From contig NZ_AUPZ01000002.1 in assembly GCF_000445475.1 (NCBI RefSeq), positions 248,001 through 312,000 on the forward strand: DNA of 64,000 nt, given 5' to 3'. Numbering within the stretch: position 1 is the stretch's first letter; each line of letters starts with the position of its first letter. Under the pieces are notes generated by a model. That model was not told the DNA's origin. It did no database searches and worked only from the letters and a program-made list of their open reading frames with translations. A program made the position numbers and the translations under genes. This DNA comes from Sulfurimonas hongkongensis. Its GTDB lineage: Bacteria > Campylobacterota > Campylobacteria > Campylobacterales > Sulfurimonadaceae. Of this stretch, positions 47,231 to 54,591 are shown piece after piece.

Positions 47231-49123
47231 TTATATAGCTTTAGAGATAATTCTGTTTAGTCTTAAGATAAAGTCTGCTGTATCATCAAGCTCTATGCCA
47301 TCAAAGAGTTTTGCTTGGTCAAGCAGAACATGAGCAGCATCGTTTATAAGATTTTGATCCGCTGAGTTTTTTAGTTTTACAAGAAGTTCATGCTTAGGAT
47401 TTATCTGTAAAATCGGTGCAGGTGCAGGAGTTCCTGTATCTTGTCCCATCTGCTTCATCATTTGAGCCATCATATAAGCTGGGTCTTCTTTATCCTCTTT
47501 TAGTTTAACAGGAGAGTCAACAAGATCTGATGTAGTCTCAACTGATTTAACAGCATCGCCAAGTGCGTCTTTAAACTCTTTTGCTAAACCTTCAAAAGAT
47601 TTTGCAACCTCTTCTTGCTCTTTTTTCTCATCTTCGCTCTCCTCAAACTTTGCATCAGCTACAGATATAAGCTTGTACTCTTTATACTCAGTTACCATTG
47701 GGAAGATGATAGTATCTACTTCTTCATTTAAAACTAAAACATCGATGCCACGAGACTTAAACTTCTCTAGAGCTGGAGATGCTTTTAGCATTGAGAGTGA
47801 TGCTTTTCCTGTGATGTAGTATATCTCTTTTTTATCTTCATCTACATTTTTAACAAACTCTTCTATCATAACCTTTTCATCAGAGTTTAGTGTATTAAAT
47901 TTCATTAGCTCTAAGATTTTTTCACGATTTGCAAAGTCACTATATAGACCCTCTTTTAAAACATTTCCAAACTCATTAAAGAACTCTTCGTACTTTTTAG
48001 GATCTTTTTTTGCCATCTTTGAGAGTTCTGAGAGAACTTTTTTAACTGAAGCATTTTTTATCTTGTTCATAACTGCGTTTGATTGTAAAATCTCACGAGA
48101 AACATTTAGAGGCAAATCTTTTGAGTCAATTACACCTCTTAAGAATCTTAGATAAGTTGGCATCAACTCTTTTTCATCATCTGTAATAAATACACGGTTG
48201 ATATATAGTTTGATACCAGTTTGGTAATCAACTCTGTACATATCCATCGGTGCTTTACTTGGGATGTAAAAGAGTGTCGTGTACTCTATAGCACCTTCTG
48301 CTTTATTGTGCATCCATGTTAGCGGCTCTTCTGATGAGTGAGCTATTGAGCTATAAAAATCTTTATATTCATCATCCGAAATTTCATTTTTTGAAATTGT
48401 CCATAGTGCATTTGCACGATTTATTTGAGTATTTTCTATCTCTGTACGTGATGGCTCAGTCTCTTTACCATCATCATCTGTAACTGCGGGAATATGCTTC
48501 TCTTTATCCATAAAAATAGCAAAAGGGATGTGATTTGAATACTTTTTGATGATACTCTCGATTCTATGAGTCTCTAAAAACTCTTCTTCATCATCGTTTA
48601 GATGCATAACTATAGTAGTTCCGTGAGAGTCTCTTGAACTTTTTGATATTTCAAACTCGCCATCACCAGCACTAGTCCATAAAAATGCTTGCGTCTCGCC
48701 TGCTTTTTTAGTTATAACTTCTACCTTGTTTGCAACCATAAAAGAAGCATAAAAACCAACACCAAACTGACCTATAAGATTAGAATCTTGTTTTTGATCA
48801 CCAGTAAGATTTTCTAAAAATGCTTTAGTTCCAGACTTAGCGATAGTTCCCAAGTTGTTCATTAAATCCTCTTCATTCATACCAATACCAGAGTCTTTAA
48901 CAGTTAGAGTTTTCGTCTCTTTATCGGCAATAATGTCGATTCTAGGAGCAAAAGTCACACCTTTGTACTTCTCATCTGTTAAAACTAACATATTTAGTTT
49001 ATCAAGTGCATCTGATGCATTTGAGACAAGCTCACGAAGAAATATCTCTTTGTTTGAATATAGTGAGTGTATCATTAAGTTTAGTATTTGATTTGCTTCT
49101 GTTTGAAATTGATGTTTTGCCAT
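47231..49123 (-). CDS. htpG: Molecular chaperone HtpG (Hsp90)
   Basis: A 630-aa ATP-dependent chaperone. The GHKL ATPase motifs are intact: ELVSNASDALDKL, KDSGIGMN, NLGTIAKSGTKAF and IGQFGVGFYASFMVA. LNVSREILQ in the middle domain is also present. The start at 49123 (MAKHQFQTEA) follows an AAGGAC ribosome site; a longer frame to 49192 has no family sequence. It ends at a strong hairpin terminator and is monocistronic. Confidence 0.96.
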   Translation of the reverse strand: MAKHQFQTEANQILNLMIHSLYSNKEIFLRELVSNASDALDKLNMLVLTDEKYKGVTFAPRIDIIADKETKTLTVKDSGIGMNEEDLMNNLGTIAKSGTKAFLENLTGDQKQDSNLIGQFGVGFYASFMVANKVEVITKKAGETQAFLWTSAGDGEFEISKSSRDSHGTTIVMHLNDDEEEFLETHRIESIIKKYSNHIPFAIFMDKEKHIPAVTDDDGKETEPSRTEIENTQINRANALWTISKNEISDDEYKDFYSSIAHSSEEPLTWMHNKAEGAIEYTTLFYIPSKAPMDMYRVDYQTGIKLYINRVFITDDEKELMPTYLRFLRGVIDSKDLPLNVSREILQSNAVMNKIKNASVKKVLSELSKMAKKDPKKYEEFFNEFGNVLKEGLYSDFANREKILELMKFNTLNSDEKVMIEEFVKNVDEDKKEIYYITGKASLSMLKASPALEKFKSRGIDVLVLNEEVDTIIFPMVTEYKEYKLISVADAKFEESEDEKKEQEEVAKSFEGLAKEFKDALGDAVKSVETTSDLVDSPVKLKEDKEDPAYMMAQMMKQMGQDTGTPAPAPILQINPKHELLVKLKNSADQNLINDAAHVLLDQAKLFDGIELDDTADFILRLNRIISKAI

Positions 49124-49285
49124 CTTAAATGTCCTTTTTTTAAATTTTAAGTATATTACCAAAAAATAGTTAATAGTTACAAATGATATCAAAAAAGTTT
49201 AGCCTATATGGCTCACATATTTTTAGTCTATTAGCATTTTACATAGTTTAGCTATAATCATACAACTTAAAAGTAAGGTATAGAA

Positions 49286-51776: not shown

Positions 51777-52202
51777 TTATTTTACTTCTATAGCTTTTGG
51801 TTTAAGAGACTCTTCTCTCTCAAGATCTATTATAAGTCTCCCGTTTTTGTACTCTGCATTTATCTTTTCTTGATCAATCCCTTTAGGAAGAGTAAAGCTT
51901 CTCTCAAACCTACCGAATGAACTCTCTAGATGATAATAGTCTTCCCTGTTTATCTCTTTTCTCATCCTACGCTCACCACTAATAGTTAAGATATTATTAT
52001 CAATTTTTACTTCGATATCCTCCTTTTTAACACCAGGTAAATCAATTTCGACATGAAAATCTCCACCCTTCTTTTTCGCCAAGTTTGCAAAAGGGAGATG
52101 ACTAGCAACATTACTCAACACCTCCTTGCCTTTTTCAAACCCTTTTTCTAAGCTCTCTTCTATCTCATTTCCTATCTCTTTAGTTTTTTCAATAAAGCTC
52201 AT
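51777..52202 (-). CDS. Hsp20-family small heat shock protein
   Basis: A 141-aa alpha-crystallin-type chaperone. The crystallin domain spans about 45-130, with VEIDLPGVKKEDIEVKIDNN, LTISGER and FGRFERSFTLP, and an Ile-x-Val C-terminal anchor (AIEVK). The N-terminal 40 residues are helical and charged. It follows a second Hsp20 gene by 10 bases, so the two are co-transcribed. Confidence 0.92.
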   Translation of the reverse strand: MSFIEKTKEIGNEIEESLEKGFEKGKEVLSNVASHLPFANLAKKKGGDFHVEIDLPGVKKEDIEVKIDNNILTISGERRMRKEINREDYYHLESSFGRFERSFTLPKGIDQEKINAEYKNGRLIIDLEREESLKPKAIEVK

Positions 52203-52212
52203 AATAAACCTC

Positions 52213-52659
52213 CTATTTAATCTCTATTTTTTTTGACTTTTTCTCTACTTTTTGAAACTTTGGTATGATCACTTCTAAGACACCATCTTGCGATTCTGCA
52301 CGTATATTTTCAATATCTACATTCTCAGGCAGAGTAAAACTTCTTTCAAATTTTCCATAACTACTCTCTATTTTATAGTAGTCCTCTTTTTCAACCTCTT
52401 CTTTAGTCTTTCTTTCACCTGAGATTGTTACAACATTATCTTTTACATCTACATTGATATCCTCTTTTTTCATACCTGGCAGATCCAACTCTACATGGTA
52501 AGCATGTTCTCCCTCCCGCGTGTTGACTAAAGGTTCAAAATCAGCCTTGCTAATTGTTGCCATACCACCCATAAAATTATCTAAGAATGAGTTGAAACTA
52601 TTAAATCCTCTTTGAAACTCTCGCATATCTCTAGTTGGGTTATATTTTGTAATGTACAT
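52213..52659 (-). CDS. Hsp20-family small heat shock protein
   Basis: A 148-aa alpha-crystallin-type chaperone with VELDLPGMKKEDINVDVKDN, VTISGERKTK and YGKFERSFTLP. It is the first gene of a two-gene unit with its paralogue, and an AAGGAG ribosome site precedes the start. No CIRCE operator is visible in the 31 bases between it and the 45-bp repeat upstream. A pair of interacting small heat shock proteins is a common arrangement. Confidence 0.93.
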   Translation of the reverse strand: MYITKYNPTRDMREFQRGFNSFNSFLDNFMGGMATISKADFEPLVNTREGEHAYHVELDLPGMKKEDINVDVKDNVVTISGERKTKEEVEKEDYYKIESSYGKFERSFTLPENVDIENIRAESQDGVLEVIIPKFQKVEKKSKKIEIK

Positions 52660-52690
52660 TTTTAACTCCTTATTTTTATTTGCAGTATTA

Positions 52691-52735
52691 GTCTAGTCTA
52701 TTTAATAAAATAAGTCTGCCACTTTAGTGGCACTT
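52691..52735. repeat. 45-bp direct repeat, copy A
   Basis: Identical over 45 bases to 53865-53909, 1174 bases away in the same orientation. It contains a hairpin TGCCAC-TTTA-GTGGCA (52717-52732). It lies 9 bases beyond the stop of the membrane-protein gene and just upstream of the hsp20 promoter region. Confidence 0.95.
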
Positions 52736-52744
52736 TAAAAAAAA

Positions 52745-53590
52745 TCAACTACGGGAAAGTTTACTAAATATAGATAAAGATATAATAAACATGGAAACGC
52801 CAGCAATTAAATAAAAAGCATAAGTCATATCACTGTATTCTTTTGAGAGTATAATTTTAAAAATAAATATCAATCCTTCTATTGATATCGCAACAATTAT
52901 TGAAATTAAAAATTTAATAAAAACTCTGCTGCTATTGCCTTTTTCTGCTTCTTGTCTATAAATAACTTCATGTTCCAATAAGTTCTTACCCAAATCAAAA
53001 ATAGCCAATCCTAATGTAATTGAAACAATAGATTTAAATGTGGCTTCTATTAATGTTGAATCATAGTAGAGCAGGTACGAGCCAAAAGTTAGAATAGAGT
53101 ATAAAATTAAAATTGCAGATAATAGATACAGTCCGTATCCTATAGTAGCATAAAAAAATTTATTTGTTTTTATAAAAAATGTGCCATGTGTGACATAGTT
53201 TAACTCTTCTAATAAATCAATTAAATCAAAATCCATTACTAAATAGTTCTTTTCTATCTTTTTAATGACTGTAATAATGGTACGACCTGTTGATATGGAC
53301 ACATAAGGAGAGCTAACATATTTTCCACCTTTTATAACTCTCTTTTCAAAAGTAACTATTCTATCTATTGGTAATGGTGCCGTATCCTTCTTATCTCTTA
53401 TAAGTTTTGCTTTGGATTGTTGATAATTATCATCTGTAACATAAAGCATTTGTAGTGATTTAAATGTTTTAAAAAAGCTACTTAGATGTTTATCTGTAAG
53501 CTCGTTAGTAACATTATTGGAAATATTATCAAGTAAAAATCTTTCAATATTTTCTTTGTTTTTTTTATAAATAATAATCGCCTGTATCAT
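52745..53590 (-). CDS. Membrane protein with N-terminal sensor-like domain, cassette gene
   Basis: A 281-aa protein. Residues about 1-135 resemble a PDC/Cache-like ligand-binding part (MLYVTDDNYQQS, SSPYVSISTGRTIITVIKK, YLVMDFDL); four transmembrane helices follow. No output domain is present. A very strong AGGAGGG ribosome site lies 6 bases before the start. It lies between two identical 45-bp repeats, is AT-rich even for this genome, and looks like an inserted cassette. Function unknown. Confidence 0.65.
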   Translation of the reverse strand: MIQAIIIYKKNKENIERFLLDNISNNVTNELTDKHLSSFFKTFKSLQMLYVTDDNYQQSKAKLIRDKKDTAPLPIDRIVTFEKRVIKGGKYVSSPYVSISTGRTIITVIKKIEKNYLVMDFDLIDLLEELNYVTHGTFFIKTNKFFYATIGYGLYLLSAILILYSILTFGSYLLYYDSTLIEATFKSIVSITLGLAIFDLGKNLLEHEVIYRQEAEKGNSSRVFIKFLISIIVAISIEGLIFIFKIILSKEYSDMTYAFYLIAGVSMFIISLSIFSKLSRS

Positions 53591-53701
53591 CTACAACCCT
53601 CCTAAACTGTGTAGTAATAGGCAAGAGACTAATTGTTTAGCCTTTATGTTTGATTATTCACTGCTATCTTTTTTACTCCCTCTATCAGCTAATGTAACTC
53701 T

Positions 53702-53860
53702 TTATAGCTTGTGCTGCTTTGACTGATATACCCCATCTGACTTACCAAACCAATCATTAGCACCTCTATAAATCAAATCGTTACTGTTAGCAAAATTGAA
53801 GTTGTAATCATAAAAAAGAAGAACAAGAAGAACAATCCAACTCTTCCTCGTTTTACGAAT
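53702..53860 (-). pseudogene. Possible truncated small secreted-protein fragment
   Basis: The 317-base gap between the cassette gene and the Crp-type gene holds a minus-strand frame of 52 codons without a standard start. It reads as basic residues, a hydrophobic stretch (WIVLLVLLFYDYNFNFA) and a polar tail (NSNDLIYRGANDWFGKSD). It begins a few bases inside the border of repeat copy B, as if its start had been cut off. It could also be chance. Nothing else is seen in this gap. Confidence 0.3.
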
Positions 53861-53864
53861 TTAA

Positions 53865-53909
53865 GTCTAGTCTATTTAATAAAATAAGTCTGCCACTTTA
53901 GTGGCACTT
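53865..53909. repeat. 45-bp direct repeat, copy B
   Basis: Identical to 52691-52735. Its hairpin TGCCAC-TTTA-GTGGCA (53891-53906) sits directly after the stop codon of the Crp-type gene, overlapping that stop by 2 bases. On the minus strand the hairpin is followed by ACTTATTTTATT, so it may act as a weak terminator. Confidence 0.95.
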
Positions 53910-54591
53910 AAGATAGAGGAAGGCTGTCTAGAAGTTTTTGTGCGTCTTTTATTTCAATATTTTTACGCTTGACAGTGATCATATCATCATCTTTTAGTTG
54001 TTGAATATGTCGATTAAGCACTTTTCTTACAGTTCCTATTATACTTGCAATTACTTCGTGTGAAAGATTTTGTAAGAGATTGCGCTTGCTAGGATTTTCA
54101 TGATTTGTAGTTTTTGAAATTAGCTTTATAAGTCTCTCTGAAACACTATAAAGCGAGAGGTCCAAAGCAAGCTCCTCCCTCTCTCTTAACTGATTTGAAA
54201 CATATGGAAAAAGTATTTTATTAAAATTTTGATCCTCTTGCATCCATTTTCTAACGATCTCAATAGGAAAACATACGATTTTAACTTCATCTAGTGCATA
54301 CAATAGATTTTCATGTAGCTTACCATCAAGAAGCGTAACTACATCATACATATCGCCATTAGTTAAGATGGTGATAATCTGCTCTTTAGCATTCTTTAGA
54401 TTCACTTGTGAAACTTTAATTCTGCCCTCAAGTACAAAAAAGAATTTTTTCGTTAGCTCTTGGGGTGTTAAAACCATTTCATCTTTTGAAAAAAACAAAA
54501 CTCGTCCATAGCTCTCTACATCTTGATGAAATTTACTTTGAACAATATCAATAGGATATTCGACTTGCACAATCACTCCTGCTAGATTCAA
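53908..54591 (-). CDS. Crp/Fnr-family transcription regulator
   Basis: A 227-aa regulator with an N-terminal cyclic-nucleotide-binding-type beta roll (about 30-130, KFFFVLEGRIKVSQVN) and a C-terminal winged helix (about 170-220, LSHEVIASIIGTVRKVLNRHIQQL). No Fe-S cysteine cluster is visible, so it is not a classical oxygen-sensing FNR. It is divergent from ppiD across a 182-base gap in which I see no other feature. Its 3' end is joined to the repeat flanking the cassette gene. Confidence 0.87.
   Translation of the reverse strand: MNLAGVIVQVEYPIDIVQSKFHQDVESYGRVLFFSKDEMVLTPQELTKKFFFVLEGRIKVSQVNLKNAKEQIITILTNGDMYDVVTLLDGKLHENLLYALDEVKIVCFPIEIVRKWMQEDQNFNKILFPYVSNQLREREELALDLSLYSVSERLIKLISKTTNHENPSKRNLLQNLSHEVIASIIGTVRKVLNRHIQQLKDDDMITVKRKNIEIKDAQKLLDSLPLS

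Follow-up and report, generated by a model that had tools for sequence, protein, structure and literature searches.

Two identical Crp-type promoters, predicted to be class II, in a probable two-operon heat-shock cluster of Sulfurimonas hongkongensis with a separately gained membrane gene

In the window, by which we mean the entire 64,000-nucleotide stretch of Sulfurimonas hongkongensis DNA analysed here, two identical sequences in the same orientation enclose a membrane protein gene situated between a gene for a Crp-type regulator and a pair of hsp20 genes, and the locus raises the question of what these repeats are and how the enclosed gene came to lie between them. The initial annotation described perfect 45-bp direct repeats spaced 1174 bp apart and read them as the product of a site-specific insertion at the terminator of the Crp-type gene, or of a terminator duplication with cargo. 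The repeats prove to be 46 bp long, one more than described, with the spacing of 1174 bp and 100% identity on the same strand (copy A, 52690–52735; copy B, 53864–53909; minus strand). Both carry the palindrome TGCCACTTTAGTGGCA, which is the TGCCAC-TTTA-GTGGCA hairpin of that annotation, and copy B does overlap the TAA codon (53908–53910) with which the Crp-type gene stops. The reading that we favour, at a probability of roughly 0.78, is that of a two-operon heat-shock cluster with a duplicated class II Crp-type promoter, the membrane-gene operon of which was gained separately.

Every part of the cluster is on the minus strand. The Crp-type regulator gene comes first, followed by copy B, a leader with a decayed reading frame, the membrane gene, copy A, hspA and hspB. 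The hspA (52213–52659) and hspB (51777–52202) products are small heat-shock proteins of the Hsp20 family (PF00011, E 2e-28 and 5.8e-24, respectively). The membrane protein of 281 aa (52745–53590) falls into no Pfam or NCBIfam family, and upstream of its ATG lies the AGGAGGG ribosome site that had been pointed out before. The leader that precedes it is long (273 bp, 53591–53863) and holds a decayed frame of 52 codons without a usual start, for which no match better than E 0.019 was found in other genomes; that this frame is a piece of yfdX or of another gene was considered and rejected, there being no detectable similarity to yfdX and no meaningful match. Outside the cluster, at 2.6 kb from hspB, an ORF (47231–49192) reads like HtpG (Hsp90).

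The regulator gene (53908–54591, 227 aa) encodes a member of the CRP/FNR family, with an N-terminal cNMP-binding-like domain (PF00027, 41.1 bits against a cut-off of 27.5) and a C-terminal Crp-type helix-turn-helix (HTH_Crp_2, PF13545, 43.4 bits against 27). It scores below the cut-offs of all characterised subfamilies: its best NCBIfam score is 63.2 against the 244.95 required for NtcA, with CRP and FNR far below, so that the similarity to all three models is remote, and its best relatives of solved structure are NtcA proteins. In most congeners that possess this gene it adjoins hsp20.

How widely the repeat occurs bears directly on its nature. Allowing up to 3 mismatches, the 46-bp repeat has just its two matches in the window and none in shuffled sequence. 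A 27-bp core at the same tolerance occurs, by pattern matching, at these two copies as the sole sites in the 2.3-Mb genome, and the other 134 Sulfurimonas congeners searched gave no match to a 24-bp core when up to 2 mismatches were allowed. The repeat as a genome-wide or genus-wide family was thus rejected. The palindrome within it, by contrast, recurs about 50–100 bp before hspA in relatives, as TGCTACTTAAGTAGCA, TGCCACTTAGGTGGCA and similar forms, and a genus-wide pattern search followed by reading of the loci placed the same element upstream of dnaK, clpB and yfdX in relatives, example targets of which were confirmed by Pfam as HSP70, Clp/AAA and YfdX proteins. Where crp directly precedes hspA in relatives, the element overlaps or touches the 3′ end of crp, as does copy B here. 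By this comparison, the palindrome TGCCAC-N4-GTGGCA is a conserved operator, as predicted from its sequence context, of a heat-shock regulon.

Each 46-bp copy can be resolved into AAG, the 16-bp operator, a 21-bp spacer and a 6-bp −10 element, TAGACT (copy A: operator 52717–52732, −10 52690–52695; copy B: operator TGCCACTAAAGTGGCA at 53891–53906, −10 53864–53869). This −10 is weak (4/6) in both copies. Its distance is telling: among 59 promoters of relatives (37 of hspA, 16 of dnaK, 4 of clpB and 2 of yfdX, a −10 being scored at 4/6 matches or better), 58 have a −10 starting exactly 21 nt past the 16-bp site, and none of the other offsets between 12 and 33 reaches more than 22 of the 59. At class II promoters, activators of the CRP/FNR family bind an operator centred at −41.5. 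The fixed 21 nt puts the operator centre, as read from the position of the −10, at −41.5, and so, taking operator and spacing together, the 46-bp repeat is a complete promoter, predicted to be of the class II CRP/FNR type. Two further observations may be mentioned here. At L209 and L212 the region from which clpB and a nitroreductase-like gene diverge holds the operator, so that the latter gene may belong to the regulon as well. At L245 (G000:C4), about 224 bp ahead of dnaK, half an operator in decay, TGCCACTAAAGTACAA, without a −10 at the expected place, is possibly a lost site.

The promoter assignment also bears on the hairpin, which had been named a terminator. In both copies a consensus scan does flag the stem-loop and T-rich stretch, with its tail GACTTATTTT, as terminator-like; this score follows from the palindromic nature of the operator. 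The palindrome is, however, kept before unlinked chaperone genes at a fixed 21 nt to the −10, and the RNA around copy A does not fold better than shuffled sequences do (z −0.59). We therefore regard an intrinsic terminator that was duplicated along with cargo as highly improbable, with a secondary terminating role as its possible remainder.

Which protein would act at this operator is suggested by co-occurrence. Of the hspA loci for which the upstream sequence was long enough, the operator, with up to 2 mismatches allowed, is present in 38 of 38 where the genome has a relative of the Crp-type gene and in 0 of 6 where it has none (Fisher p 1.4e-7, a value that overstates independence, as the pattern follows a few deep clades). 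One of the 38, from G088, is a contig-end artefact. The recognition helix tracks the operator type, in that HVxER helices are paired with TGCTAC...GTAGCA, whereas those of the KVxNR form, that of the present protein included, are mostly paired with sites having at least one TGCCAC-type arm, a contrast that amounts to one deep split. Some genomes (G087, G125, G126 and G128) have dnaK, clpB or yfdX sites and no close Crp gene; most of these genomes are incomplete. The neighbouring Crp-type protein is our proposed activator at the operator, both its binding and its activation being inferred.

Bacterial heat-shock genes are controlled by sigma-32, HrcA, HspR, CtsR and similar regulators. In Campylobacterota the described control is by the repressors HrcA and HspR (PMC10696704), which, with Crp binding here deduced from sequence, would be the reason to consider a repressor, or some regulator other than the neighbouring Crp protein, as what binds the palindrome. 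Against this stand the 16-bp 6-4-6 site and its strict −41.5 centring, both of which suit a CRP/FNR activator, the co-occurrence of operator and Crp gene, and, before dnaK in this genome, an HrcA (CIRCE) match that even at its best has 8 mismatches; we thus hold a different regulator to be improbable. Over dnaK, clpB and groES of this genome together, no CIRCE was found, the matches having 8–9 mismatches, and HAIR-like matches have 3–5. The HrcA/CIRCE and HspR/HAIR systems share with the one proposed here their targets, dnaK, clpB and small chaperones, and differ from it in being repressors with other operators, the Crp-type protein being a proposed activator.

Within S. hongkongensis itself, dnaK, clpB and groES are without a good operator, and 18 of the 20 one-mismatch operator sites that were fetched lie inside ORFs. 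The regulator therefore appears to act locally, and its regulon in this genome seems to be confined to the cluster.

Closest hsp20 clusters were then sought by a scan of named genomes with hspA alignment, and those nearest to the window came from Sulfurovum and other Campylobacterales MAGs. The comparison of empty and filled sites that the insertion reading calls for is provided by these clusters. Four of them (L247, L249, L250 and L251), from other taxa and other chromosomal places, have the empty form crp-operator-hspA-hspB, in which the single operator, of differing sequence, is the hspA promoter. The operator centre lies 63–67 bp before hspA in these four and, for copy A, 65 bp before the hspA start here, so that removal of one copy with the intervening segment would indeed restore the simple order foreseen in the initial annotation, at the distance of the empty sites. 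A fifth locus, L248 of a Campylobacterales MAG, is filled: it reads crp-operator-yfdX-membrane gene-operator-hspA-hspB-third Hsp20 (L248:1184-4888), and its two operators sit where those of the window do, yet are diverged, at 73% over 49 nt. The simplest reading of this filled form is one promoter per operon, and we consider that each repeat copy probably drives its own operon as well, as judged from this arrangement. The decayed leader of the window occupies the slot of the L248 yfdX.

These loci also allow a judgement on the cassette proposed at the outset, a non-autonomous mobile element that a site-specific recombinase would have placed where the Crp gene has its 3′ end, with the 46-bp copies as attachment-site duplicates. 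In favour of such an element are direct repeats that match perfectly and lie at a gene's 3′ end, the existence of both empty and filled sites and a cargo of different ancestry and lower G+C (26.5% vs about 33%). No recombinase ORF lies between the copies, however, as had been noted for an integrase, and the 46-mer, confined to the cluster within the genome, has no further copies that would mark other insertions; what it contains is a promoter that recurs, conserved, before chaperone genes at unlinked places, and the L248 filled form is flanked by diverged operators and not by exact repeats. Genomic islands with direct-repeat attachment sites likewise have repeats bounding cargo at a gene 3′ end, but here an integrase is lacking, the repeat is a promoter, and the empty sites already hold it as the hspA promoter. 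Site-specific insertion is on these grounds very unlikely, and what stands of the initial proposal is that an operon lying between crp and hsp20 was acquired separately. A viral source of the cassette found no backing either: viral contigs gave neither a 31-mer match nor a relative of the membrane protein.

That the membrane-gene operon has a history of its own follows from the protein identities. The window Crp, HspA and HspB proteins are 72, 74 and 76% identical to those of L248 (71.5% for Crp before rounding) and 41, 62 and 48% to those of G099, a Sulfurimonas genome, whereas the membrane protein is 74% identical to that of G099 and 51% to that of L248. From this conflict we conclude that the membrane gene is one that arrived or was replaced separately from crp, hspA and hspB, as gauged by sequence identity. 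Its description as cargo between Crp and hsp20 is supported, its ancestry being different. To hsp20 clusters as such the gene is no stranger: relatives of it occur in linkage with hsp20, yfdX or groESL, and orthologs were found in G099 (75%), G088 (69%), G112 (57%) and G153 (50%). The G099 locus keeps, just before the hspA operator, some 20 codons from the 3′ end of the membrane gene as a remnant (L143:5391-5460), and its intact membrane gene follows downstream, with hsp20 genes on one side and crp on the other. The G088 operon, of the form operator-yfdX-membrane gene and with the membrane gene at 69%, is convergent to groES-groEL (L148:4310-8321), a neighbourhood that ties the membrane protein to the stress response beyond hsp20. 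Among 101 others, the promoter spacer nearest to that of the repeat is the one before this G088 yfdX-membrane gene operon, with 16/21 positions identical. The operon and its spacer together hint at a Sulfurimonas-type donor from which the membrane-gene operon brought the repeat sequence along, the hspA promoter being afterwards replaced by this sequence or overlaid by a duplicate of it.

An old, vertically kept two-promoter arrangement, in which the identity of the copies would be due to gene conversion alone with no recent insertion, would fit the L248 order crp-operator-yfdX-membrane gene-operator-hspA-hspB, with operators at the same places, and the 72–76% identity of crp, hspA and hspB to that locus. 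We nevertheless rate it as rather unlikely, since the membrane gene, at 51% to L248 and 74% to G099, must at least have been replaced and since the repeat spacer is closest to that of the G088 yfdX-membrane gene promoter. Conversely, the two-operon form by itself leaves the perfect identity of the spacers unexplained, L248's two operators sharing just 73%. The course of events that we propose for the two-operon cluster with a separately gained membrane-gene operon is thus as follows. The cluster would be the two-operon form of an ancestral crp-operator-hspA-hspB unit, to which the membrane-gene operon was added from a Sulfurimonas-type donor, its original first gene (yfdX in L248) having decayed or being missing. 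The two promoters would have become identical through that gain or through later conversion, along a recombination path that we infer. Bound to the operator as a dimer, the Crp-type protein would make contact with RNA polymerase at the heat-shock promoters, with copy A driving hspA-hspB and copy B, at the position of operator 1 of L248, presumably driving the membrane gene.

The cluster as a whole probably also came from elsewhere. In about 23 relatives for which both genes were seen, bioA and ppiD adjoin each other with a gap of about 70–560 bp and no crp or hsp20 detected between them, and from this adjacency we conclude that the complete Crp-membrane gene-hspA-hspB cluster (51777–54591), most like clusters of Sulfurovum or Campylobacterales, was probably acquired here. 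Its assignment to the Crp-first or Crp-last type of Sulfurimonas cluster was considered and dropped, as it forms a third deep lineage in trees. Campylobacterota-like Hsp20 clusters are also found in MAGs labelled Gammaproteobacteria or Lysobacterales (L251, L262, L265, L277, L285 and L287), L251 having crp and the operator too, as a result of contamination or transfer.

Set against known systems, the cluster shares with described stress clusters the association of small Hsp20 genes, yfdX and a gene for an inner-membrane protein, and differs from them in having its own Crp-type regulator and operators; of their hallmarks, hsp20 and, in relatives, yfdX were identified, and hdeD and flanking mobile elements were not seen here. 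With CRP/FNR class II promoters it has in common a 16-bp palindrome at −41.5, a fixed −10 distance and a regulator with PF00027 and PF13545, and it is unlike these in its operator, TGCYAC-N4-GTRGCA, and its chaperone targets. We lean towards the broader view that in Sulfurimonas and related Campylobacterota an activator of the CRP/FNR family would turn on hsp20, dnaK, clpB and yfdX in response to heat shock, through class II promoters that carry this operator, and that the chaperone cluster and its regulator would form a self-controlled module moving between lineages. No Crp/Fnr heat-shock regulon of Campylobacterota was found in the literature searched, which covered few subscription journals, and such control of heat-shock genes in related sulfur bacteria is apparently undescribed. 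If true, a Crp/FNR-type heat-shock activator in sulfur oxidisers of vents and sediments would be a new use of the family, and would raise the question of which signal is sensed. The duplicated promoter would show how a chaperone cluster gains a new operon while both operons are kept under one switch, and the operator, its −41.5 geometry and its gene partner are defined well enough for a direct test.
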